Positions 7,023 to 29,825 are shown, counted from the first letter of the stretch. The stretch is DNA of 44,545 bases from Candidatus Pelagibacterales bacterium (GCA_028412835.1 JAONQW010000008.1:1-44545), one strand, 5' to 3'. The notes: generated by a model from the sequence alone, not told the origin. Made by a program: numbers and translations.

Positions 7023-9530
7023 TTAAAAAGGAATATTGATATCAAGTTGAATAGAGTGCTCTTCACCATGATCCAGCTGATCTATGCGTTGCAATGACAG
7101 TCGTCCAATATTTTGATCTTGATATGTGATATCTGAGCCGAATAGAATTTTAAAAGCATTATCATAATCACGTTTCATTGCTTTTGTGAACAGTTGTGAA
7201 GTCCCCGCACCATAGACGGCATATAGATTTGAAGTATCGGTAAGATTTTCTTCAATGGCAATCTCTGCATATGGCATAAATGAATAGTGCTTAGTTTCAA
7301 ATGATTTGTTATAAGCAAACTTGGCTCCAAGTGATAGTGCTGAACTATGAATGTGCTGATCATAAAACGTCATACTATCAATACCGGCACTTTCTGAAAA
7401 ATGTTCAAGTTTAATAATGCCGTAATCAAATTTACCATTGGGTGCAATTGATACATCACCAAAATTAAATTGTAATGCATAACCAACGCTCATCTGTAGT
7501 GCATAAGCATCTCGATATCCATAATAGTAAGTTGTATTATCTGTTCCACGTCTTTGTGTTTCAATATCTGATTCGCTATATATAAATGTTGCATTGATGT
7601 TTTGATTGTTTGGAAGTTCTAGATTGTGATAACTAGAAATGCTAATGGTCTGGTTATCAACGTTGTTGATAGCATCAATTTCATCTTTAGAGTTACTGTG
7701 GTGCATGGAGAAGCCATATAAATAACTGGGACTAAACTGCTTATCAATTCCAATGCCTATATTTTGTAATTCAAAATCAATTCCAGATTTTGTTGCAGTT
7801 CGATCACTTTCACCAATGGTAATGGAACCTATTGTCCATATGTTCCACTCCGCATTAATGTCGCGTTCCAAATTGAGTTTATTCAAAGTATAATTAAAGA
7901 GTTTAGCAATCTGTTCATTGGAGCCATTATAGGCCAAAGCAATACCTTGATTGAGAGTTGCTTGTTTGCCAAAATTTAAAGAACTTAATCTCGCATCAAC
8001 AGCATCAGCTGCAATCGATGTGGCACGTAATGTACTTGCAATTTGTGTTTCCACAACAGCTAGGTTTGCAGCAGTATCAAAAGGGTTGGTTCTTTGATAA
8101 ATCCAGACAAATTGATTTGCTACTAAATTTCCATTGCCAGAAGCATCAGTATAAACGCCCGCTAAAATACTAATTGTAATTTGACCTATTGTATTAGGTA
8201 TCAATGTTGCACTATAAGTAGTTCCGCTACCAGTAAAGTTAATTAAAGTGCCATTTGAAACTACAATATCAGCTAGTACAAAATTTGAAGTACTTTCACT
8301 TGATGAAAATGTAATTGAAAGTGTCGAATTCTCAGATGTTGATGCATTCTCGACTTCTGAAGCACTTATAACCATTGATGGTGAATCAGTATCACACGAA
8401 GCAATCAGATCCCAATTGCTTCCTGAAGAATTATTTAATGACCAGCTACAATCACCGTAAGTTCCACTCGGTGCCACTCCACCACTAAAATTACTTACTG
8501 ATACACCAGTAATAACGTTACTATATGTTCCATTTACTACCGATGAACCTGTGGCAATACTAAAAGTTGTTGCTCCATTTACATTGCTGACTGCCAATTG
8601 ACCAAAATCATTAGCATTATTAATTTTTATTTTAGTATTTGTTGGTATGTTGGTGTCCCATAAAAGAGGGTTGCTATTTTCTTTTCCTTGATCATTGACT
8701 AATGTTGTAACAAAACCATCAAGATGCGCTTTAATGGTGCCTTCCATTGTGCCAATATTTGTAAGTGTCGCTATAGTACCATCTGCACCAGAACCATTAT
8801 CTCTGATATAAATAGAATTACCAGTTCCATTAATATTTCCAGTATTTGTAATAGATGTAACCGTTGCACCAAGTATTCGGATAGCTCCATTAGAACCTCC
8901 AATATTTCCAGTACTATCAATGGTACCTGAGTTTGTTATAACAACTCCAGTTGTGGAATCGCAGCTCCCTGGCATCATCATGCAGTCCCCGCCGCTTTCA
9001 TCAGATAAGCTTATTTGTTCTTCTGGGCCTGAAATTGTTCCAGAATTTGAAATTGTTACATTAGCAACTCCAGTAACACTTATGGTCCTAACACCAGACG
9101 TAGAAATAGTTCCTTCGTTATTGATTATTATATCAGATGCATCTGAGCCTGCGTTTACTGCATCATGTCTTGTAGAAACAGATCCAGAACTTTTAACATT
9201 AACTGTGTTACTGCTTCCACTTTGGAATTGAACACCATAATCACTTGATCCAGTTGTGATCGAACCAAATACATTAAAAATATTTGAATTTCCTGAAAAA
9301 CGTGTCGCTGATCCATTCGTATCATTTATAGTAACCCCAGAGTTAAGTGTATGAGTAGTGTTATTACCGGTCATTTGAAAATCACCGTCACAATTCGCAG
9401 AAATTGTGCTTGCATTATCTGTACAATCAGCAGCTAAAGAATTTTCAGGTGATATAAAAAATAAAATTAAAACAATTAAAAAAGTGAAAAAATTAACTAA
9501 ATGGATTGATAAACTCTTATTGAATAACAT
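7023..9530 (-). CDS. autotransporter (type Va) with beta-helix passenger and Ig-like domain
   Basis: An 835-residue surface protein. Residues 1-34 form a signal peptide. Residues 35 to about 380 are rich in Asn, Ser, Thr and Gly with recurring ITNSGTIxGTG-type turns typical of a right-handed beta-helix passenger. Residues about 383-480 resemble a bacterial Ig-like domain (ISASEVENASTSENSTLSIT, ending TDASGNGNLVANQFVW). The last 270 residues alternate polar and aromatic residues as an outer-membrane barrel and end IQLDINIPF, with the terminal Phe used by the Bam machinery. The passenger is probably an adhesin; no protease triad is seen. It stands alone, with its own 75-bp upstream gap before tRNA-Asp. 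Confidence 0.88.
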   Translation of the reverse strand: MLFNKSLSIHLVNFFTFLIVLILFFISPENSLAADCTDNASTISANCDGDFQMTGNNTTHTLNSGVTINDTNGSATRFSGNSNIFNVFGSITTGSSDYGVQFQSGSSNTVNVKSSGSVSTRHDAVNAGSDASDIIINNEGTISTSGVRTISVTGVANVTISNSGTISGPEEQISLSDESGGDCMMMPGSCDSTTGVVITNSGTIDSTGNIGGSNGAIRILGATVTSITNTGNINGTGNSIYIRDNGSGADGTIATLTNIGTMEGTIKAHLDGFVTTLVNDQGKENSNPLLWDTNIPTNTKIKINNANDFGQLAVSNVNGATTFSIATGSSVVNGTYSNVITGVSVSNFSGGVAPSGTYGDCSWSLNNSSGSNWDLIASCDTDSPSMVISASEVENASTSENSTLSITFSSSESTSNFVLADIVVSNGTLINFTGSGTTYSATLIPNTIGQITISILAGVYTDASGNGNLVANQFVWIYQRTNPFDTAANLAVVETQIASTLRATSIAADAVDARLSSLNFGKQATLNQGIALAYNGSNEQIAKLFNYTLNKLNLERDINAEWNIWTIGSITIGESDRTATKSGIDFELQNIGIGIDKQFSPSYLYGFSMHHSNSKDEIDAINNVDNQTISISSYHNLELPNNQNINATFIYSESDIETQRRGTDNTTYYYGYRDAYALQMSVGYALQFNFGDVSIAPNGKFDYGIIKLEHFSESAGIDSMTFYDQHIHSSALSLGAKFAYNKSFETKHYSFMPYAEIAIEENLTDTSNLYAVYGAGTSQLFTKAMKRDYDNAFKILFGSDITYQDQNIGRLSLQRIDQLDHGEEHSIQLDINIPF

Positions 9531-9735: not shown

Positions 9736-9811
9736 TGGTGGGCGATGACAGGTTCGAACTGCCGACATTCACGGTGTAAACGTGACGCTCTTCCAGCTGA
9801 GCTAATCGCCC
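9736..9811 (-). tRNA. tRNA-Val (TAC)
   Basis: A complete cloverleaf: acceptor GGGCGAT/ATCGCCC, D-arm GCTCAGCTGGAAGAGC, anticodon loop TTTACAC (anticodon TAC), T-arm GGCAGTTCGAACCTGTC, discriminator A and an encoded CCA. It lies between hup and tRNA-Asp, a common alphaproteobacterial order. Confidence 0.97.
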
Positions 9812-9860
9812 TGAAAGATTGGAATATATATATGTTTAAAATTAATTCCTAGTCTTTAAT

Positions 9861-9898
9861 AAAAAAAATCCGACTAAGTGAAAAACCTAGTCGGATTT
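9861..9898 (-). terminator. intrinsic terminator of hup
   Basis: AAATCCGACTA and TAGTCGGATTT (9866-9876 and 9888-9898) pair as a perfect 11-bp stem. On the minus strand a run of eight T follows. It lies 25 bases past the hup stop, so the two tRNA genes beyond need their own promoter or read-through. Confidence 0.88.
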
Positions 9899-9922
9899 AA
9901 AAAATAAATTTTTTAACTTAAA

Positions 9923-10201
9923 TTAGCCGTTGTTAACTGCTTCTTTGAGTCCTTTACCAGCAGTAAACTTTGGTCTTGTTGACTGTGGTATTTGAATAAC
10001 TTCATTTGTTCTAGGATTTCTTCCTTGTGAAGCTTTTCTGATAGATGTCTTAAAAGTACCGAAACCTACTAGTCTTACTTCACTTCGTGCCTTCAGTTGC
10101 TCCGTAATTTGATCAAAAACAGCATTTACTGCTTTTTCTGAATCACCTTTAGCCATGCCAGTGATTTCAGCAACTTTTCCAATTAGATCTTGTTTATTCA
10201 T
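9923..10201 (-). CDS. hupB: HU family DNA-binding protein
   Basis: A 92-residue nucleoid protein that bends and compacts DNA as a dimer. It has the N-terminal helices MNKQDLIGKVAEITGMAKGD, the GFGTFKTSIRKASQGRNPRTNE signature with the beta-arm, and the intercalating Pro in IPQSTRPKFTAGKGLKEAVN. Length and sequence are standard HU-beta; IHF lacks this tail. A strong ribosome site (AAGGGG) precedes the ATG. It sits 140 bp downstream of lon with its own likely promoter and terminator. Confidence 0.96.
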   Translation of the reverse strand: MNKQDLIGKVAEITGMAKGDSEKAVNAVFDQITEQLKARSEVRLVGFGTFKTSIRKASQGRNPRTNEVIQIPQSTRPKFTAGKGLKEAVNNG

Positions 10202-10241
10202 AATAAATCCCCTTCTTTGGATTAACGATTCGCAATATTTC

Positions 10242-10271
10242 TATAGGATCTGAACTATATCTCTTAGTCAA
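10242..10271 (-). promoter_or_regulatory. probable hup promoter
   Basis: On the minus strand TTGACT (10266-10271) and CCTATA (10242-10247) are separated by 18 bp, about 40 bp before the hup ATG. The -35 is good and the -10 is fair; no experiment supports it. Confidence 0.42.
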
Positions 10272-10341
10272 TCTAAAAAACATTGAAAAACTAGTAAAAT
10301 TGAGGATTATAAAATTTAATAAATATAAATATCTATTAGAT

Positions 10342-12874: not shown

Positions 12875-14149
12875 TTAAGCGCTACTTTCCGAGGTTTTTT
12901 TATTATTTTCAGAATAAATGTACAATGGTCTAGCTCGACCCTCAGCAACTTCAGCATTAATTACAACTTCCTCAACGCCTTCTAGTGACGGCAGCTCAAA
13001 CATTGTATCAAGAAGAATATTTTCTAAAATCGATCTTAGGCCTCGCGCACCTGTTTTGCGTTCAATAGCTTTCTTAGCTACAACCCTTAAAGCATCTTTG
13101 GATAAAATTAGTTTAACGTTCTCCATATTGAATAGAGTTTGATATTGCTTTACTAGAGCATTTTTAGGTTCCTGTAATATCGTCAACAAAGCGTCCTCAT
13201 CAAGATCATTTAAAGTTGCAACTATTGGTAATCTTCCAACAAACTCTGGAATTAATCCATAATTTAATAAATCTTCAGGCTCTAAATCGTTTAGTGCCTC
13301 ACCAATACTTTTTTCATTAGCAGACGCTACATTAGCTTGGAAACCCATTCCACTACCTTTTGATCTTTGTGTAATCATTTTGTCAAGACCGGCAAAAGCA
13401 CCGCCACAAATAAATAGGATATTAGTTGTATCAACTTGTAAAAACTCTTGCTGCGGATGTTTTCTCCCACCTTGAGGAGGTACACTTGCAACGGTACCTT
13501 CCATAATCTTTAATAACGCCTGTTGAACACCTTCACCTGATACATCTCTAGTAATTGAAGGATTTTCTGATTTTCTACTGACTTTATCGATTTCATCAAT
13601 ATAGACAATTCCACGCTGGGCTTTTTCGACATTATAATCCGCAGCTTGTAATAATTTTAAAATAATATTTTCTACATCTTCACCAACATAACCTGCTTCA
13701 GTTAGTGTTGTTGCATCAGCCATAGTAAATGGCACGTCTAATATTCTTGCTAAAGTTTGAGCCAGTAAAGTTTTACCACAACCCGTTGGTCCAATTAACA
13801 ATATATTAGATTTAGATAATTCAACATCTGATTTCACATTTGAATGTTCAATTCTCTTATAGTGATTGTGAACAGCAACTGAAAGATTTTGTTTGGCTTT
13901 TAATTGACCAATCACATAGTCATCTAAGGTGTCACAAATTTCACGTGGAGTAGGAATTTTACCAGAAGCATTTTTTTGATTATTGGCTTCCTTATTTTCT
14001 TCAACAATAATATCGTTACATAGTTCAACGCATTCATCGCAAATGAACACTGTCGGACCAGCAATAAGTTTCTTTACTTCGTGTTGGCTTTTACCACAAA
14101 ACGAACAATATAACGTATTCTTAGTTTTATCTTGCGTACTATCACTCAT
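12875..14149 (-). CDS. clpX: ATP-dependent Clp protease ATP-binding subunit ClpX
   Basis: The 424-residue unfoldase partner of ClpP. Residues C15, C18, C37 and C40 form the zinc-binding domain that binds substrates and adaptors. Walker A is [15 protein letters not shown], Walker B is IVYIDEIDK, and the sensor and C-terminal small domain include [14 protein letters not shown]. The ClpP-docking IGF-type loop is represented by the [11 protein letters not shown] region. It is separated from clpP by 119 bp, so it may have its own promoter as well as read-through. Confidence 0.98.
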
Positions 14150-21551: not shown

Positions 21552-23126
21552 TTAATGGCTGCCAAAAATACCGGTCTTAACACCGTAGTCAGCTGCCAAT
21601 GCATAGTTTGGATCATCATCACTATCAATGATTAAATGGCCAGCTTTAGATAAAAGTGCATGACAGTCTCTGCTTAAGTGTCTTAATTGAATATTTTTTC
21701 CTAAATTTTCATATTTAGTTGCTAACATTTCTATTGATTGAAGAGCAGATTGATCCACTACTTGAGACTTAGTGAAGTCCACTATAACATTTTTAGGATC
21801 TTCATCTGGGTTAAATAATTCAGCAAATCCCTCACAAGACCCAAAAAATAATGGGCCATCTAATTCATATATTTTGGTTTGACCATCATCAGATAAACTT
21901 GTTCTTGTTTTAATGTGCTTAGCTGTATTCCATGCATAAGCTACTGATGCAAATATAACGCCTACAACAACAGCTGTTGCAAGATCTGTTGCAACTGTGA
22001 CACCTGTTACTAAAATAGTAACAAACGCATCCGCCTTAGGAACTTTTCTTAAAATTAATATTGATCGCCATGCAAAGGTTCCGATAACAACCATGAACAT
22101 AACACCTACAAGTGCTGCCAATGGTATTTCTTCAATTATTGGACTAGCCACAAGAATAAATAATAAAAGAAAAAAAGCAGATGAAACTGCAGCTAAACGT
22201 GTGCGACCTCCAGAGTTAACATTAATCATTGATTGTCCAATCATGGCACAACCTCCCATGCCACCAAAAAAACCTGTAGCTACATTAGCAACACCTTGTG
22301 CCACACACTCTTGACTGGCGCCACCTCTTTCGTTGACCATTTCACCAATTAAATTAAGGGTTAACAAACTTTCAATTAGACCAATTGCTGCCAAAATAAA
22401 TGCGTATGGTAAAATTATTAATAATGAATCAATAGAAAATGGTATCTGAGGCACATAAAAATCTGGAAATTTTCCTGCTACTGATGCCATATCTCCAACA
22501 CGTGGAACATCTATACCAAAAAAAATTACAACAAACGCTACTACACAAATACCCATTAATGGCGCAGGAATAGATTTAGTTACTTTTGGTGTTAACCATA
22601 TAACTATCATTGTTAGAAAAACTAACGATAACATAATAATTAAAGATACATCTGATAACCATTCAGAGTCATGTCTACCACCAACTTTAAACTGCTCTAA
22701 TTGTGATAGCCCAATTACTATTGCAAGACCATTAACAAATCCCAACATAACAGAATGAGGAACTAATCTAATAAACCTTCCCCATCTTAAGAAGCCAAAT
22801 ATTATTTGCATCAGCCCCATTAAAATAACAGTCGCAAATAGATATTGAACACCATGAAGAGCAACTAGTGAAACCATAACAACAGCAAGTGCCCCAGTAG
22901 CACCTGATATCATACCTGGACGCCCACCAATTAAAGCGGTTATCAGTCCAATTATAAAAGCAGCGTATAAGCCAACCAGAGGGTTTACTCCGGCAACAAA
23001 AGCAAATGCAATAGCCTCTGGAACCAGTGCCAACGCAACAGTGAGTCCAGCTAAAAGTTCAATGCTTAAACTTGTGCTTGTTAAAGGAAAGTAATTCCAG
23101 AAAATATTGCTGTTTTGGTTTTTCAT
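21552..23126 (-). CDS. SulP family anion permease with STAS domain
   Basis: A 524-residue inner-membrane transporter. About 10-12 hydrophobic helices include the SulP hallmarks ALALVPEAIAFAFVAGVNPLVGLYAAF and the GGMGGCAMIGQSMIN region; the soluble C-terminus (DGPLFFGSCEGFAELF, VIVDFTKSQVVDQSALQSIE) is a STAS domain. Substrates in the family include sulfate, bicarbonate and dicarboxylates. The start is set at the ATG at 23124-23126. The frame stays open for 13 further codons, but those are translated from the tRNA-Lys repeat of the inserted element. Before that insertion the gene would have begun seven bases after tRNA-Lys. Confidence 0.9.
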   Translation of the reverse strand: MKNQNSNIFWNYFPLTSTSLSIELLAGLTVALALVPEAIAFAFVAGVNPLVGLYAAFIIGLITALIGGRPGMISGATGALAVVMVSLVALHGVQYLFATVILMGLMQIIFGFLRWGRFIRLVPHSVMLGFVNGLAIVIGLSQLEQFKVGGRHDSEWLSDVSLIIMLSLVFLTMIVIWLTPKVTKSIPAPLMGICVVAFVVIFFGIDVPRVGDMASVAGKFPDFYVPQIPFSIDSLLIILPYAFILAAIGLIESLLTLNLIGEMVNERGGASQECVAQGVANVATGFFGGMGGCAMIGQSMINVNSGGRTRLAAVSSAFFLLLFILVASPIIEEIPLAALVGVMFMVVIGTFAWRSILILRKVPKADAFVTILVTGVTVATDLATAVVVGVIFASVAYAWNTAKHIKTRTSLSDDGQTKIYELDGPLFFGSCEGFAELFNPDEDPKNVIVDFTKSQVVDQSALQSIEMLATKYENLGKNIQLRHLSRDCHALLSKAGHLIIDSDDDPNYALAADYGVKTGIFGSH

Positions 23127-23132
23127 ATTTAG

Positions 23133-23177
23133 TGGTGAGTCCGCTCGGGCTCGAACCGAGGACAATTCCCTTAAAAG
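23133..23177 (-). repeat. attachment site, far end (tRNA-Lys 3' fragment)
   Basis: Forty-five bases identical to 29750-29794, running from the encoded CCA through the T-arm, variable loop and anticodon stem into the loop. Beyond 23177 the sequence departs at once from tRNA-Lys. This is the chromosomal tRNA end displaced by integration. Confidence 0.95.
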
Positions 23178-23286
23178 CTTGATGAGATACCCGTGGAGAG
23201 ATGTCCGTCTATTCTAATTCCCTAATGCTTTCTACCTTTCGTTATATGGGATTATATACGAGTAGTGTCACGAAGTGAAATGAAAA

Positions 23287-23315
23287 GACGTCAAGTACGT
23301 CAGAGGGACGTCAAG
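23287..23315. promoter_or_regulatory. candidate integrase arm-type sites (left)
   Basis: GACGTCAAG at 23287-23295 and 23307-23315, with TACGTCAG between them, is a set of three ACGTCA units about ten bases apart. The same ACGTCA core recurs at the other end of the element beside the integrase gene. A second pair of near-repeats, GAGTCATYAAA, lies at 23346 and 23367. Confidence 0.55.
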
Positions 23316-23442
23316 GTTTGGGAATGTATTATTAGAATCCATTTAGAGTCATCAAACTCGCTTACTGAGTCATTAAAACTATCTTTGACTCCCTACCTAC
23401 CCTGAGCCACGATACGTGAATCCTGAAGAGTCTGAGTCCGTT

Positions 23443-25326
23443 TTAGAATGGACAATCATCATCATCATAAGGAATTTCATCTACTACTTTGGGAATTTTA
23501 AATGATCCATAGCGTTCACCTTGTATTAATAGACCGCGCTTCCGCATTGATTTAACTTTGGCTTTAACATTCCAATCACCACGATCAAATTTCTGCTTGT
23601 TATTTGCTTCGTCCCATTCAATGAAATTGGATCTTCTCATTTCTGCTATCAGCTCGACTGTCTTACAATCCCCAACAACTTCCCTACTATCATCAGACAT
23701 CGCTTCACATATAGCTTCAACACAAGTGAGGATATTGCGTGTTAACTTATCGTGCTTTTCACCTTTCTCAGCAACACCAACCATTGTCCACGTTCCGTTA
23801 TTCAGTTTTATTTGATACTCTTGTTCAGGTAGATCACGTGCAACGATAGTCATTGTTGTTTCAGGATCCTCGATCCCCGTACCGCGAGCCCTGTCTAAAC
23901 GCCAATTACCGTCCTGACCTTGATAAGCTGAAGTACCGATCATTCTATTGATAGTATCTTCACCTTTTCTTTCATCGCCTTTCTTATCGTGTGTGTTAGC
24001 CATAGCACATACATTCTCAGCTAACATATCGCGTTGAAACTTATCTATTAAGAAAGATCCCTCCTCATACGCGTCATTACCTCCAACTTTCTTAGAGCTC
24101 TTTGCACGTATAAACGTATCGAGAATAATTAGTTTCACATCTAACATATTAGGATCAGCTCTTACTGCGTGTATCTTCTTAACTAAAGCTTCTTCTAAAC
24201 CCTCCATAAGTTTCGGTGAAGTAAAGCTCAGTAAAAAATTATCACATTCATCTAAGCCCATAAGTTTAGAACGGGAATTAATTCTTCTTTCATTATCCTC
24301 TAGTGCAACAAATAAAACTGTTCCTTGAATTACCGGTCGACCAAGAAAAGCTGTGCCTGTGGCAATCGAATGACATAACTGCATTGTAAGAAAAGATTTA
24401 CCTAGCTTTGGTTTAGAAGCTAGAAAGAACAGACCTGAGGTTAACATTCCCTCAACTATTTCTTCGATAGGTTCGTATTCTCTTTTAATGATTGTACCAA
24501 GTGATACCCAATCCATAGTAGTTAATTTTGGTTTAACTATTTCTTCTTCAGGTACACCTTTGACTAACTGAATAATAGAACCCCTGACCTCAAACATATC
24601 TTGAGTAGACCAATTTAATCTTTCTAATTTACTTGGATTATTTTTCTTAATCATTGCGTCTACAGACTTTCGAGTTTCTCCCAATCTTTCGGATCTACTG
24701 ATAGCTGTTAGGAAATTTTCAACTAGATAATGAATTGTATCACTATCTAATTTCTGAAAAATCATTTCGCCAACAATGGGAATTAAGTAATCATTAACTG
24801 ATCCACTATACCCCTCAACTAACTGACAAACTAAGCCTATGGTGTAAAATTGTTCTACTACTGTATTGAAATCGTACTCAGGACTATCAGCTATGCTAAA
24901 GGAAGCTTCACCAATGGGATCACTCAACTTGCCTTGCAATACTGAGTAATTACCCTCACCACGCATTTCTACTAGTACCTTTTCACCAAACTTTATTTGT
25001 TTTCGTGAAAATGATTGTGGGTTTGTAATTTCTACAAGTGCGTGTCCTTTGCCATTTCTTCCAAACTTATGACAACCATTGAAAGCTTGATTACCCCAAT
25101 TAACAGCAAGCTCACAATCAAAATCCAAATCAACAAACTTGAAGCTTGGTCTGATTGCATAGTTTAAATGATCTGCAACTACGTGATCTTTCGATAGTGT
25201 TGGGAATTTATTATTCTCACCATTCCAAGCATATTTAAGTTTTTTGTAATTACCCTGAAAAGAATCTACGTCAGGTATATACGAAAATACATCTACACCC
25301 TTTTCTATTAGTGAATGTATGCTCAT
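23443..25326 (-). CDS. primase-helicase type replication protein of the element
   Basis: A 627-residue protein. The N-terminal 200 residues have FVDLDFD (64-70) and FGRNGKGHALVEI (88-100), resembling the two active-site motifs of bifunctional primase-polymerase domains. A central RepA/AAA_25-type ATPase has Walker A ASKPKLGKSF near residue 303, GTVLFVALEDNERRI and Walker B KLIILDTFIRAKSSK, plus ANTHDKKGDE. The C-terminus looks like a winged helix (VKAKVKSMRKRGLLIQGERY). It likely initiates replication of the excised element. It is the last gene before the left attachment site, and its ATG overlaps the upstream stop by four bases. The Prim-Pol assignment is weaker than the helicase assignment. 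Confidence 0.8.
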   Translation of the reverse strand: MSIHSLIEKGVDVFSYIPDVDSFQGNYKKLKYAWNGENNKFPTLSKDHVVADHLNYAIRPSFKFVDLDFDCELAVNWGNQAFNGCHKFGRNGKGHALVEITNPQSFSRKQIKFGEKVLVEMRGEGNYSVLQGKLSDPIGEASFSIADSPEYDFNTVVEQFYTIGLVCQLVEGYSGSVNDYLIPIVGEMIFQKLDSDTIHYLVENFLTAISRSERLGETRKSVDAMIKKNNPSKLERLNWSTQDMFEVRGSIIQLVKGVPEEEIVKPKLTTMDWVSLGTIIKREYEPIEEIVEGMLTSGLFFLASKPKLGKSFLTMQLCHSIATGTAFLGRPVIQGTVLFVALEDNERRINSRSKLMGLDECDNFLLSFTSPKLMEGLEEALVKKIHAVRADPNMLDVKLIILDTFIRAKSSKKVGGNDAYEEGSFLIDKFQRDMLAENVCAMANTHDKKGDERKGEDTINRMIGTSAYQGQDGNWRLDRARGTGIEDPETTMTIVARDLPEQEYQIKLNNGTWTMVGVAEKGEKHDKLTRNILTCVEAICEAMSDDSREVVGDCKTVELIAEMRRSNFIEWDEANNKQKFDRGDWNVKAKVKSMRKRGLLIQGERYGSFKIPKVVDEIPYDDDDCPF

Positions 25327-25562
25327 AAATTATCCGCCATTTCCATAAGATGATATTCATAACCACCGTCATAGTCATATCCGTACGGATCAATCTGATT
25401 ATCTAAACATTCTTTTGATATATCGCCTTGTTCATACAAACCAATATAGAGTTCGTCCTGATGTTTTTTAAAACAGTTCTTACACAAATCTAAATGATTA
25501 TCTATTTGTGTTGTGATTTTACAGGTATCACACGTACCTATTGTTGTTATCTCTTTTTGCAT
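25323..25562 (-). CDS. small zinc-ribbon-like protein (79 aa)
   Basis: Contains CDTCK (from residue 11) and CKNC about 16 residues on, a likely four-Cys zinc site, followed by an acidic Tyr/Asp-rich tail (DPYGYDYDGGYEYHLMEM). No family is recognised. AGGAG lies upstream. Its stop overlaps the start of the primase-helicase gene (ATGA), so the two are coupled and it may act with the replication protein. Confidence 0.7.
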   Translation of the reverse strand: MQKEITTIGTCDTCKITTQIDNHLDLCKNCFKKHQDELYIGLYEQGDISKECLDNQIDPYGYDYDGGYEYHLMEMADNL

Positions 25563-25646
25563 TTCATAATGCTCCTTGTATTAAGTTAAAAAAATCTCTC
25601 ACCTTTAATTCTTAACTTTCTTCTTTCTTTCAAAATATGCGCTACG

Positions 25647-25796
25647 TCATTTTGTGTTCTCCTCTATTTGTTTAATACGATGTGCTAATATCTTTTCTGA
25701 TTGTTCTCGTGCATTTCTAATTAATTTTCTTCTTCTCTCTAATCTAATTTGCTCTCGATCTTTTTTTGGTAGCATTTTCATTACAGGTTTAAGCAT
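25647..25796 (-). CDS. small basic coiled-coil protein (49 aa)
   Basis: A 49-residue frame beginning MLKPVMKMLPKKDREQIRLE and continuing as one long charged helix, ending IEENTK. The start overlaps the stop of the preceding gene by eight bases (ATGCTTAA), the same junction form seen elsewhere here, and GAGAG precedes it. The overlap and good codon flow support a real gene; the function is unknown. Confidence 0.55.
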   Translation of the reverse strand: MLKPVMKMLPKKDREQIRLERRRKLIRNAREQSEKILAHRIKQIEENTK

Positions 25797-26391
25797 TTTT
25801 TTCTCTCAATCGTTTTCCAATGCGTGCGTACTTCGTGTTGATATGCATTAAAGCTCTACCACCTAAATCATACGATCCAGCTAAGCCAAGAACAGCGTCA
25901 GCACATAGAACAATTTCTTGTGAAGTTAAAAGACAGGGAATGAAATCGTGTGGTCTTGGTGCTCCCATTTCAAGAAACAAACCATTAGATCCATTTATAT
26001 TTATACCAAGATCAGAATGGAACCATTTAGCCTCATCGGGCTTCTTCATAGTGCCCTGAAGTAAAGCTTCAATATCTTTTGTGATCTTTGCTTCTATTTT
26101 TTCAATCGTAATTAAATTTGGATCATCTAACGGTTGCGATATCTCCTTAGTGTAATGATGACTAAAACCTTTGGTATGGTCGCAAATAACTAAGTGCTGT
26201 CCTGTGTGGTCTAGTTTAATTTCTGTAAGCGCGTCCTGATAAGGTTCTGAAACCAATCTCTCCGACAAGTGCATCGTTGACTCAATCATCGGGGTTCGGG
26301 GTTTACCTCTCTGCCTAACCTTTGAATGATAGGTGTTTAACTCATCATTCAAAGATTTAGAAACTTGCTTATTGAAGTTAACTTTAGGCAT
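25789..26391 (-). CDS. element protein of unknown function (200 aa)
   Basis: No family is recognised. The sequence begins MPKVNFNKQVSKSLNDELNT, has a basic patch (VRQRGKPRTP), and a C-terminal third with a hydrophobic segment LTSQEIVLCADAVLGLAGSY followed by GGRALMHINTKYARIGKRLR. It is predicted soluble. The ATG at 26389-26391 overlaps the upstream stop as ATGCCTAA and is preferred; the frame is open to an ATG near 26451, which would add 20 residues and overlap the upstream gene by 68 bp. Confidence 0.65.
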   Translation of the reverse strand: MPKVNFNKQVSKSLNDELNTYHSKVRQRGKPRTPMIESTMHLSERLVSEPYQDALTEIKLDHTGQHLVICDHTKGFSHHYTKEISQPLDDPNLITIEKIEAKITKDIEALLQGTMKKPDEAKWFHSDLGININGSNGLFLEMGAPRPHDFIPCLLTSQEIVLCADAVLGLAGSYDLGGRALMHINTKYARIGKRLREKNA

Positions 26392-26599
26392 TGCCTGAGC
26401 GTGCAGTGAAGAAATCAAAGACTTTTCTTTCAAACTCATTTTCATAATCAAAGCCTAATACTTTTCTTCCGTCTGCGGTTATTGTCGCTACACCTAATTC
26501 GTGAGCTAATAAAATCAGACCTACATAATCATTAGGTTCTTCTTTAAGTTGATTTTCTAATCGTTCTATATTTTGTTTTTCTCTTTTGGGGGTTAACAT
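26384..26599 (-). CDS. small element protein of unknown function (71 aa)
   Basis: Seventy-one residues, predominantly helical, with LENQLKEEPNDYVGLILLAH and a C-terminal FERKVFDFFTARSGNA. It follows the AlpA-like gene by 25 bp with AAGGA upstream of its ATG and is coupled to the next gene by an 8-bp overlap. No domain is identified. Confidence 0.62.
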   Translation of the reverse strand: MLTPKREKQNIERLENQLKEEPNDYVGLILLAHELGVATITADGRKVLGFDYENEFERKVFDFFTARSGNA

Positions 26600-26624
26600 A
26601 TTTCATATTCCTTATTTTTAATTG

Positions 26625-26837
26625 TTATGATTGGAGATTGTATTCTTCTAACCCCATATGATTTTCTTCAAACCATTCTTGAGCATACTCTTTGGGAATG
26701 AATACTCTCTTTCCCTCAGGTTGCTTAAATAGTTTTGGCCCAAGTCCCTCACGACATAGCTGATAGAATTTGCCACGTGAAATACTTGCGTGCTCGCAAA
26801 ACTTATTGATTGAATAAAAAAATTGTGGTGTGGTCAT
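26625..26837 (-). CDS. AlpA-like helix-turn-helix regulator/excisionase (70 aa)
   Basis: A small winged helix protein: FFYSINKFCEHASISRGKFY forms the MerR/AlpA-type helix-turn-helix and LGPKLFKQPEGKRVFIPKEY the wing. In phage P4-like and satellite elements such proteins act as regulators of integrase or excisionases. AAGGAG lies a few bases before the ATG. It is the first gene after the 660-bp non-coding region, where short palindromes could be its binding sites. Confidence 0.8.
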   Translation of the reverse strand: MTTPQFFYSINKFCEHASISRGKFYQLCREGLGPKLFKQPEGKRVFIPKEYAQEWFEENHMGLEEYNLQS

Positions 26838-26965
26838 ACGTTCTCCTTGTTTGTTAAGTAAACATAGGAGCCTTCTTCATAATCAGTTTTTCCCAGTATC
26901 TTGTGCTCGTCTGATTATCGTATGTATTGCACATCGCTAGTTATGAGCGATAAAGTTCTTCTTAC

Positions 26966-26983
26966 GTAAACATTATTGTTTAC
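26966..26983. promoter_or_regulatory. palindromic candidate operator
   Basis: GTAAACATTATTGTTTAC is an 18-bp palindrome with 7-bp arms and a TTAT centre, 129 bp before the AlpA-like start. GTAAACA recurs at 26858-26864 with an opposing TGTTT at 26848-26852, next to the gene's ribosome site. Confidence 0.5.
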
Positions 26984-27044
26984 TGCGTGCATTATCAATA
27001 ATTTGAATCTCCAAGTCAACATAGTTAATAAAAAACATTATTGC

Positions 27045-27060
27045 ATACGAGATAGCGTAT
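27045..27060. promoter_or_regulatory. second palindrome in the control region
   Basis: ATACGAGATAGCGTAT has perfect 5-bp arms and a 6-bp centre. TCGTATG at 26918-26924 is the reverse of the CATACGA that overlaps it. Confidence 0.35.
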
Positions 27061-27468
27061 CTATTTTTTTGATTTAACTTAGAAAAGCATTGTCTAACAA
27101 TAGCTTCAGAGTCTTAGTTTAAATTTTATTTGTTGAAAAAATGATATTTGGTTTTTTTCTGTCAGGTAAGCACAATAACTATCTTTTTTTTCCTATTCAT
27201 CTTATTCAAATGGGAATTAGAAGATTAAGATAAATAATATAAAAAAAAATGAGTGTATGATCTTATTCTCTCATAAAGTTTTCAGCTCGTCTGAATGACC
27301 CCATTAACAGTGTCAAATTTACTCTAGATTTACCCTAACTTAGCCCCCATTAGCGTTGCCCGATCCACGCTCCATTATCCATTATGCAAATAAGTGTTTA
27401 TACTGAATCGCGAACCTTGGATTTTCGAGTTAAGTAAATTATTATCAGCGTAATTTCATAATTCCTTT

Positions 27469-27509
27469 AACGCCGAGTAGCTTCTCACCCTTTTACGCTA
27501 CTTGGCGTT
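27469..27509 (+). terminator. long hairpin at the end of the 61-aa membrane-protein gene
   Basis: AACGCCGAGTAGC and GCTACTTGGCGTT pair over 13 bp with one mismatch and a 15-nt loop. On the plus strand GTTTTCG follows, a weak T-run. It overlaps the stop region of the minus-strand gene at 27498, so it may also end or stabilise that transcript. Which strand it serves is uncertain. Confidence 0.45.
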
Positions 27510-27683
27510 TTCGTTTGTCTGTACTCTCATAGCGTGTTCCATTGGGCTACGATCCGTATCATAACAAATTACACTTGTGATGATGTCTTGTACCCTCCAA
27601 ACACTGAGCATTATCATTAACAGTAAAATGTTCGTGACTACAGGGTGAGCAATTAGTCGCTCAATTAATAAAACATATTCCAT
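27498..27683 (-). CDS. small single-pass membrane protein (61 aa)
   Basis: A hydrophobic helix (VVTNILLLMIMLSVWRVQDI, about residues 15-34) is flanked by charged ends, with a polar tail. AAAGGG lies seven bases before the ATG. No family is recognised. It is the last of a group of three small membrane proteins in the element; holin-like, exclusion or signalling roles are possible but unproven. Confidence 0.55.
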   Translation of the reverse strand: MEYVLLIERLIAHPVVTNILLLMIMLSVWRVQDIITSVICYDTDRSPMEHAMRVQTNENAK

Positions 27684-27804
27684 ACAATTCCCTTTCGATT
27701 TTATTTCTAAAAAATTTTCATATAATTTTCAGGGTTTGTAAATGAGTAAAAGCTTAATTACATAGCTAATAGAAAGTACCCATTATGTCAGTTTGGGGGG
27801 TACG

Positions 27805-27847
27805 TGGTACCTCTTTAAACCTCCTACACAATCGACTTGGTACCTCT
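27805..27847. repeat. TGGTACCTCT direct repeat
   Basis: Two copies, 27805-27814 and 27838-27847, are 33 bp apart (about three helical turns) in the 193-bp gap between two membrane-protein genes. They could be a binding site; nothing else in the gap looks coding. Confidence 0.45.
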
Positions 27848-27876
27848 ATTGAATGTAAGAGGAACACCTCATAAGG

Positions 27877-28074
27877 TTAGCAAAAAGTATTGTTTAATCC
27901 GAAAGGTACTGCAAAAAGACAAACCCACGACGAAAGTGCAATAGGTACATCAAGAAAATCTGGCCACGGGTATTCAAACTTGTAGCGATTTTTAAAATCA
28001 TCAACACATACAATAACTATTGTTGCGAGGCATATTCCAATCACCCATAAAAAATATCCAACTACTGTACACAT
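27877..28074 (-). CDS. small two-helix membrane protein (65 aa)
   Basis: Hydrophobic segments at about residues 3-24 (TVVGYFLWVIGICLATIVIV) and 43-60 (DVPIALSSWVCLFAVPFG), joined by a charged loop. No family is recognised. Its ATG directly abuts the stop of the upstream gene (TGAATG), suggesting reinitiation rather than its own ribosome site. Confidence 0.55.
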   Translation of the reverse strand: MCTVVGYFLWVIGICLATIVIVCVDDFKNRYKFEYPWPDFLDVPIALSSWVCLFAVPFGLNNTFC

Positions 28075-28308
28075 TCAGGCGAGTCCGAGCGTAGCGAGGA
28101 CGAGCGACGCTGAGGCACTAGCTGTTTCGTCATTCTGCGTATTAAAATAAACCCTAGCTCCGCCGAGAATAAAAATTACTGCAAGACCTTTTAGAATTCC
28201 ATTACGACGAGTTTCATTATCAGACCTATCCCACCACGGGCTTAAGATTGACCAAGCAATGTAAGCCCCCATACCTGATAAAATAATCATTATAAAATAG
28301 TCTTCCAT
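28075..28308 (-). CDS. small two-helix membrane protein (77 aa)
   Basis: Begins MEDYFIMIILSGMGAYIAWS; a second helix is near LKGLAVIFILGGARVYF. The C-terminus (ETASASASLVLATLGLA) is unusual and is encoded by locally GC-rich DNA with GAGCG/CGCTC repeats. The ATG at 28308 is preferred to a TTG two codons upstream. No family is recognised. Coupled to the next membrane-protein gene. Confidence 0.52.
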   Translation of the reverse strand: MEDYFIMIILSGMGAYIAWSILSPWWDRSDNETRRNGILKGLAVIFILGGARVYFNTQNDETASASASLVLATLGLA

Positions 28309-28333
28309 TATCAAAAATATTACAGCAAATATT

Positions 28334-28534
28334 TTATGAGTCTATAGCCCCAAACAAATCTAATTCCCTACGCTGTATCTCATCTTCTCGCATAGATTGT
28401 TTACGCCATATACCATAACGAGTAATTTGCATTTCTTTTAAAAGATCACATCTGTAATCGTACCTGAGCTTAAGCTTTAATAGTTCGATCTTCTTACGTT
28501 GCTTCAATCGATAGAGCTGAATATTACTTCGCAT
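28334..28534 (-). CDS. small basic helical protein (66 aa)
   Basis: A Lys/Arg-rich, probably coiled-coil protein (LYRLKQRKKIELLKLKLRYD, later RREDEI-like segments). The start MRSNIQ is chosen because GGAGG stands five bases before it; the frame extends four codons further without a ribosome site. It may bind nucleic acid; no family is recognised. Confidence 0.6.
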   Translation of the reverse strand: MRSNIQLYRLKQRKKIELLKLKLRYDYRCDLLKEMQITRYGIWRKQSMREDEIQRRELDLFGAIDS

Positions 28535-28647
28535 TAAAACCTCCACCGTATTTCTTAATACTAAGTAGAAGTTTTAAATGTTTACGCCTTAGTTTTCTCC
28601 GTATACAAAACAGTCTGAGGAAGCTAGTTCGCGCTGACTTCCTCAAC

Positions 28648-29658
28648 TTAAACATTCTCACCTCTCATCTTCTGAGCTAAGTGTTCACCTTTAATCTGCG
28701 TGTAGCGTTTCAACTGAGATAAAGACTTCCAACCACCTTGAGCCGATAGTTCACTAACAGTCCAACCTTGCATTGCATAATCTGAAGCTGACATATGCCT
28801 GACATCGTGGAATCTAAAGTTATCAATTCCCGCCTTGATACAAGCTCTAGTGAATGCTTTAGAAATAGCATTGCCTACATTCTTTGGTGATACGTGTGGA
28901 GTCGGAAAAAACTTTCCGTCTACGCCCATTGGCAGTGACTTCAACACTTCCATTGCTCGCGGTGACAGCCCCACGGTTCGCGGTGATCCATTCTTGGTCT
29001 TTGGTAAATGCAATGTGCCTTTCTCAAAGTTTACGTCAAATCGAGTCATACGTAGCATTTCAGAACGTCTACACATTGTTTCACGTGCAAAGATAACCAA
29101 CTCTTTCAAGTAGTAGATAGATGAAGTTTCACACGCCTGAAGTAAGGACAACCACTCATTGTCCTCGAGTGTGCGATCTCTACTGTCATCTTCCCTAGGT
29201 TTAGATACCAACATAACGGGATTGTGGGTTAATGGAATGCCAAGTTCTTTTCTACCGATATCGATAGCCTTTTGTAGCAACCCTAAAGATTTCCGTACTG
29301 TAGACTTCTTTAATTCCCCTAATAGTTCGTCCCTATACTGAGCGATATGTCTACCTGTCAGAAATCCTAGTTTAATCTTAGATATAGGGTGATTGAGAAT
29401 TTTATTACATTCAGATTGTAATCTGAGAGGATATTCAGTCTTGTGCTTAGAGTGATCAAAGTAGAGCTCTAATAATTCCCCTACAGACATCTTCACAAGT
29501 TCATTGTTATCCTGATATGTCCCGTTGAATATATCAGTTTCTATTTTATTCGCCCATTGAGAAGCGAATGCCTTAGATTTAAAAGTTTGTCCTTTCCTGA
29601 CACCTTTTAACTTCACTTCACAGAACCATTTTCCGTTTCTTTTTCGCATAGTAGCCAC
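28648..29658 (-). CDS. tyrosine-family site-specific integrase
   Basis: A 336-residue tyrosine recombinase. The N-terminal arm-binding part begins MATMRKRNGKWFCEVKLKG; a SAM-like core-binding domain follows (VGELLELYFDHSKHKTEYPL). The catalytic domain has Arg near 197 (ARETMCRRSEMLRM), the HxxRH box in FRFHDVRHMSAS near 283, a Trp in GGWKSLSQL and the nucleophile Tyr in KRYTQI near 318. All key residues are present, so it is likely active. The start is a GTG preceded by AAGGA. It catalyses insertion into tRNA-Lys, which lies 91 bp upstream of its start. Confidence 0.95.
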   Translation of the reverse strand: MATMRKRNGKWFCEVKLKGVRKGQTFKSKAFASQWANKIETDIFNGTYQDNNELVKMSVGELLELYFDHSKHKTEYPLRLQSECNKILNHPISKIKLGFLTGRHIAQYRDELLGELKKSTVRKSLGLLQKAIDIGRKELGIPLTHNPVMLVSKPREDDSRDRTLEDNEWLSLLQACETSSIYYLKELVIFARETMCRRSEMLRMTRFDVNFEKGTLHLPKTKNGSPRTVGLSPRAMEVLKSLPMGVDGKFFPTPHVSPKNVGNAISKAFTRACIKAGIDNFRFHDVRHMSASDYAMQGWTVSELSAQGGWKSLSQLKRYTQIKGEHLAQKMRGENV

Positions 29659-29674
29659 GACTTTTCCTTTCTTT

Positions 29675-29693
29675 GGACGTCATATGGACGTCA
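29675..29693. promoter_or_regulatory. candidate integrase arm-type sites (right)
   Basis: GGACGTCA at 29675-29682 and GGACGTCA at 29686-29693 are one helical turn apart, just upstream of the integrase start and about 57 bp from the attachment repeat. They match the ACGTCA units at 23287-23315 at the far end. Confidence 0.55.
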
Positions 29694-29749
29694 AACGTGA
29701 TTTCGGAAAGGTAAGAAGACTATCAGCTTGATATTTTTCGCGGATAATA

Positions 29750-29794
29750 TGGTGAGTCCGCTCGGGCTCGAACCGAGGACAATTCCCTTAAAAG
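29750..29794 (-). repeat. attachment site, tRNA end
   Basis: The 3' half of tRNA-Lys, identical over 45 bases to 23133-23177. In this integrated state the element supplies this half and the tRNA stays whole. Confidence 0.95.
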
Positions 29795-29825
29795 GGGAAT
29801 GCTCTACCAACTGAGCTACGGACTC
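29750..29825 (-). tRNA. tRNA-Lys (TTT)
   Basis: A complete cloverleaf: acceptor GAGTCCG/CGGACTC, D-arm GCTCAGTTGGTAGAGC, anticodon stem TTCCC/GGGAA with loop CTTTTAA (anticodon TTT), T-arm CTCGGTTCGAGCCCGAG, discriminator A and encoded CCA. It lies 58 bp after the suf operon's last gene and is the integration target. Confidence 0.97.

Follow-up and report, generated by a model that had tools for sequence, protein, structure and literature searches.

The 44,545-nucleotide stretch of DNA analysed here (the window; GCA_028412835.1, JAONQW010000008.1:1-44545) comes from a Candidatus Pelagibacterales bacterium, i.e. a SAR11 relative, and carries between positions 23133 and 29794 an integrated element that is probably a phage satellite. 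The element is present in a single copy in the source genome and is bounded by an exact 45-bp direct repeat (23133-23177 and 29750-29794, spacing 6,617 bp), a length of perfect identity far beyond chance. The right copy, on the integrase side, lies within an intact tRNA-Lys(TTT) gene detected by ARAGORN on the minus strand (29750-29825), the integration target, of which it forms the 3' part; the distal copy, likewise on the minus strand, consists of the 3' tRNA-Lys fragment alone. The start codon of a SulP gene (21552-23126) lies ∼10 bp beyond the distal repeat, and in an empty site SulP would come directly after tRNA-Lys. As far as can be read from the sequence, the insertion duplicated 45 bp and kept the tRNA intact.

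Next to the right repeat, the element encodes a tyrosine integrase of 336 amino acids (aa) with a GTG start (28648-29658, minus strand), which matches PF00589 (E 2.7e-23) and phrog_1 (E 1e-59). The protein is full length, and alignment shows the conservation of R197, K222, H284 and Y319, the residues expected to be retained by an active tyrosine recombinase. The identical tRNA-derived ends and the intact integrase announced in a preliminary description of this DNA are therefore both confirmed. Moreover, the motif GACGTCA occurs twice just inside each end and in one orientation, at 23287 and 23307 on the left, where two GACGTCAAG repeats span 23287-23315 (plus strand), and at 29676 and 29687 on the right, where two TGGACGTCA repeats span 29674-29693 (plus strand). 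Only 3 of 2,000 dinucleotide-shuffled versions of the element had any 7-mer paired in this way at both ends. These pairs resemble arm-type integrase sites, to which the integrase may bind. Finally, the composition of the element is foreign relative to its surroundings (GC content 36.8% versus 32.3%), and its tetranucleotide distance of 0.28 makes it an outlier when compared with equally long stretches elsewhere (0.09-0.21). Taken together, the repeats, the intact integrase, the terminal arm-type motifs and the composition provide good support for a site-specific integration, in which the tyrosine integrase encoded by the element itself inserted it at the 3' end of tRNA-Lys.

It had been suggested that the empty tRNA-Lys/SulP junction be sought in related genomes. 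The exact junction was not recovered in relatives: in the nearest genome (G003, same genus), only 107 bp of the contig remain beyond tRNA-Lys, and SulP is located on a separate contig with upstream neighbours different from those in the source genome. The use of the site itself was nevertheless confirmed in a sister genus, where the same tRNA-Lys end is empty in G022 and filled in G023 by 1.26 kb of DNA flanked by 45-bp tRNA-Lys repeats, the flanking genes being the same. This shows that elements of the family's genomes do attach at the tRNA-Lys end, though the G023 insert differs from the window element. The G023 insert (L048, G023:C3, 1107-2400) has paired CAGTCA motifs at both ends in addition to its 45-bp repeats, and encodes one 322-aa protein with a signal-like start and no integrase; it looks like a non-autonomous element. 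The draft state of the source assembly (36 contigs, 72% complete) and the different SulP neighbours in G003 could also suggest that unrelated contigs were artificially joined through the tRNA repeat. We consider this hardly credible, as assembly words are usually longer than 45 bp, the two ends of the unit carry matching arm-type motifs and the architecture recurs in independent genomes. It is plausible that the insertion is recent, and it is possibly still mobile.

All recognised genes between the repeats are on the minus strand. Reading from the tRNA, the integrase gene is followed by four small open reading frames (ORFs), a gap of ∼0.66 kb, a gene for an AlpA-like protein, ORFs of 71 and 220 aa, a Cys-rich ORF of 79 aa and the gene for a 627-aa replication protein. 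The AlpA/excisionase-like product (70 aa, 26625-26837, minus strand) matches the HTH_17 family (PF12728, E 4.7e-5; phrog_66, E 0.003), so that the regulator proposed in the preliminary description is present as an HTH_17-matching protein, whereas its identity as AlpA is weak, with 24 bits under the curated Pfam cut-off of 27.

The replication protein (23443-25326, minus strand) combines a primase-polymerase-like N-terminus with an AAA_25/RepA hexameric helicase. An AAA_25 helicase (PF13481, E 3.6e-19) makes up its C-terminal half and is related to plasmid RepA (PDB 1g8y, E 5.5e-6, profile A1). The N-terminal half aligns with the primase-helicase family of SAR11 elements, with a profile match over 423 columns, and contains a DxD-like motif, FVDLDFD, aligned to the motif of these proteins; one of the relatives (L065) has a weak Prim-Pol match (E 0.01). 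Thus, of the primase-helicase initially described, the helicase is firmly recognised and the primase half is deduced solely from profile comparison and the motif, which suggest a primase activity. Structure prediction from a 3-row alignment gave an unusable model (predicted local distance difference test score, pLDDT, 36.8), and the 3-row primase profile matched mostly host-like RadA/DnaB-type genes, as judged by size and position only. When viral and genome contigs were scanned with the single primase or integrase sequence, no relative was found, and the same kind of scan with the L190 and L065 primases gave no relative either. In the phage collection, the helicase matches are distant and partial, and those of the integrase are generic phage integrases.

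The RepA-like helicase domain raises the question of an integrated small plasmid, i.e. a RepA-type replicon that gained an integrase later. A weak relative of the protein is indeed carried by an 8.3-kb Caldicellulosiruptor plasmid (25.8% identity over 69%). However, only 6 of 72,556 plasmid records match, none of them over 80% of the protein, and the kin of the element are chromosomal tRNA elements and viral contigs, which makes a plasmid origin improbable.

No capsid, portal, terminase, tail, relaxase or secretion genes were recognised among the ORFs of the element in Pfam, PHROGs and PADLOC scans and in an NCBIfam scan of six ORFs; the absence of virion and transfer genes that had been claimed from the sequence is thus upheld by these searches. 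Likewise, the relaxase or mating-pair genes that characterize conjugative or mobilizable elements were not found with Pfam and PHROGs or, for the six ORFs, with NCBIfam. A defence role was also considered and is unsupported, as PADLOC gave marginal matches only. An integrase, an excisionase-like protein and replication genes are what decay might spare in a larger prophage cut down to its lysogeny and replication genes. Nonetheless, the repeats are perfect, the genes intact and the arrangement compact, and many SAR11 elements share the size range (∼5-8 kb with a primase) with no virion genes recognised; a prophage remnant is therefore very unlikely.

A profile search detected full-length relatives of the integrase in 18 of 397 Pelagibacterales genomes, the source genome included. 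At 14 of the 18 integrase loci, we observed tRNA-flanked direct repeats, which involve tRNA-Lys, -Ser, -Arg, -Asn, -Gly and -Met, and two further elements with an AAA_25 primase are found at tRNA-Thr. The closest relative of the integrase is that of L190 in genome G300 (41% identity; clade support 100/99). L190 occupies tRNA-Ser, is 5.4 kb long and encodes an AAA_25 primase and a terminase small subunit (TerS, 7136-7606; PF03592, phrog_51); it has no recognised capsid gene. TerS genes are also present in two tRNA-Met elements, L296 of G281 (13200-13670) and L304 of G122 (9772-10326). In the phage collection, the closest matches of TerS are pelagiphage HTVC027P (43% over 76%), which is grown on the cultured SAR11 strain HTCC1062, and the environmental phage 023Pt_psg01. 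The genomes of HTVC023P-type phages are near 59 kb (PMC9599517). A single IMG/VR contig, L305 (6,170 bp), matches the primases of the TerS elements, and its gene set is that of L304, its sister element. Because L305 has an exact 99-bp terminal repeat, we read it as a circular or concatemeric form of a complete TerS satellite; the contig L307, of the same type, is longer and linear.

These TerS elements (L190, L296, L304 and L305) and the window element have in common a tRNA site, a related integrase, an AAA_25 primase-helicase and a size of 5-6 kb, the chromosomal ones sharing with it the host order as well. They differ in that TerS and glycine-motif proteins are found in the TerS elements only, whereas the AlpA-like gene belongs to the window element. 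The small proteins with glycine-pair motifs (such as KxGGxVE) recur, often near the primase gene, at L065, L067, L068, L070, L190, L191, L296 and L303-L305. We also noted that L296 (9167-16310) has three tRNA-Met end copies, with a 1.4-kb, integrase-less insert placed after the TerS element, an arrangement that corresponds to tandem accretion.

The preliminary description had ascribed to the element the plan of phage satellites and tycheposons. Tycheposons, known from Prochlorococcus, target a tRNA and carry a tyrosine integrase and a replication helicase, all of which are found in the window element; it differs from them by having no recognisable cargo and by its host, which is not a cyanobacterium. 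Its content also corresponds to the general plan of a phage satellite, with an integrase and replication genes and no virion genes. An alternative has to be weighed in which a tycheposon-like or other tRNA-hopping island replicates itself and is spread by vesicles, generalized transduction or chance packaging, with no specific exploitation of a helper. The tRNA target and replication helicase fit this equally, no packaging gene is recognised, and related SAR11 integrases drive primase-less elements with metabolic cargo (L294 and L295). On the other hand, the nearest integrase kin resides in a TerS-bearing element, the window element has no recognisable cargo, and an AlpA-primase combination is a satellite plan. 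We therefore regard such an island as unlikely, and favour a satellite over a tycheposon-like or plasmid-like element on the basis of its gene content and kin. The satellite part of the initial claim is supported because the nearest integrase sits in a TerS-bearing, capsid-less SAR11 tRNA element and because the viral contigs include a circular or concatemeric sister of another TerS element; on the negative side, the window element itself has no recognisable packaging gene, and no extrachromosomal form of it was found.

Among described satellites, the closest in plan are the phage-inducible chromosomal minimalist islands (PICMIs) of Vibrionaceae. Like the window element, PICMIs are ∼6 kb in size, have direct repeats and lack TerS and capsid genes, and their order of an integrase, alpA, small ORFs and a primase is resembled by that of the window (PMC10803314). 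A tyrosine integrase (PF00589) is found in both, and the PICMI model accepts Pfam HTH_17 as AlpA (PF05930/PF12728) (PMC10803314), the family to which the window protein gives its sub-threshold match. In contrast, PICMIs are inserted at fis with 17-bp repeats, whereas the window element occupies tRNA-Lys with 45-bp repeats. The PICMI primase is of the DUF3987/DUF5906 type, and only AAA_25 was found by Pfam in the AAA_25/RepA-type protein of the window; DUF5906 is present in the related SAR11 elements L070 and L303. Unlike in PICMIs, no gene overlaps the integrase gene, and the host is a SAR11 relative rather than a Vibrio. Phage-inducible chromosomal islands (PICIs) and their capsid-forming variants (cfPICIs) likewise combine an integrase, a small regulator and a primase, and a TerS-based hijack would be shared by the kin of the window element. 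They differ from the element itself, in the ORFs of which no TerS, capsid-size or packaging-redirecting genes were recognised with Pfam and PHROGs. Marine virion-encapsidated integrative mobile elements (VEIMEs) have reportedly been described by Eppley et al. in 2022. They are also marine and small, with an integrase and replication genes, and a sister family of the window element includes the circular or concatemeric viral contig L305; VEIMEs are encapsidated in virions, whereas encapsidation of the window element is a prediction. VEIMEs are cited in PMC10803314 and PMC11389934. The window element is PICMI-like in plan but lies outside both PICMIs, with respect to primase type and fis site, and PICIs, with respect to TerS.

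We conclude, with a probability of about two in three, that the window element is a PICMI-like phage satellite, integrated in the genome of a SAR11-related bacterium and with a pelagiphage-like helper. Several observations weigh against this conclusion. No helper phage or circular form is known for the window element, and no close relative of it was found among the viral contigs scanned. TerS, capsid-size and cos/pac determinants were not recognised in it with Pfam, PHROGs and PADLOC, and the AlpA assignment comes from a weak match. In addition, the primase gene is nearest those of TerS-less elements of G093 (26%) and G185 (21%) rather than those of the TerS elements, and integrases of the family also drive SAR11 tRNA-Met islands without primase, namely L294 (G326) and L295 (G334). 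L294 carries metabolic-looking genes, and L295 encodes secreted-looking proteins and a phrog_4756 protein; these two look like cargo islands rather than satellites.

PICMIs excise upon expression of AlpA and are copied by means of their primase, and a virulent helper packages them as concatemers (PMC10803314). By analogy, infection by a pelagiphage-like helper could lead the AlpA-like protein of the window satellite to act as an excisionase and switch. The integrase, together with AlpA, would then excise a 6,617-bp circle, the primase-helicase would copy this circle into a concatemer, and the terminase and capsids of the helper would package and transmit the element. As no TerS is recognisable, the satellite would rely either on headful packaging by the helper's terminase, as in PICMIs, or on a protein that escaped recognition, for instance the 220-aa product.

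The latter protein (25789-26451, minus strand) has no relatives in our searches, and its structure prediction yielded no usable fold (pLDDT 36.7). The remaining ORFs are all on the minus strand and of unknown function. The four following the integrase gene encode a basic product of 70 aa (28334-28546), two products of 79 aa (28075-28314) and 65 aa (27877-28074) in which hydrophobic stretches can be read, one in the former and several in the latter, and a 61-aa product (27498-27683). The region without recognised gene (26838-27497), located upstream of the alpA-primase set, contains several short imperfect repeats and is a candidate control or origin region. Downstream from the AlpA-like gene, a 71-aa ORF (26384-26599) precedes the 220-aa gene, and the 79-aa Cys-rich ORF (25323-25562), which is zinc-ribbon-like and has no significant family match, overlaps the helicase start. 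Outside the element, a neighbouring ABC gene has alphaproteobacterial matches.

SAR11 bacteria rank among the ocean's most abundant cells, and their phages have a strong influence on their mortality. We tentatively propose, at rather less confidence than for the window element itself, that SAR11 and its relatives carry unrecognised, order-wide, tRNA-borne pelagiphage satellites, some with a captured TerS that would redirect the helper's terminase, and minimal ones, like the window element, that have no TerS and would be packaged otherwise. A full-text literature search, the scope of which did not include the primary VEIME and tycheposon papers, retrieved no paper linking SAR11 or pelagiphages with phage satellites. 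The surprise is limited, as satellites of marine bacteria have already been reported (VEIMEs and PICMIs); the findings of most interest are the SAR11-wide distribution and the HTVC027P-like TerS, and the window element contributes a minimal version without TerS. The likeness of TerS to that of HTVC027P names a candidate helper, so that the idea is testable in an existing culture system. If SAR11 hosts satellites, models of pelagiphage infection would need a third party able to steal virions and perhaps to protect cells.

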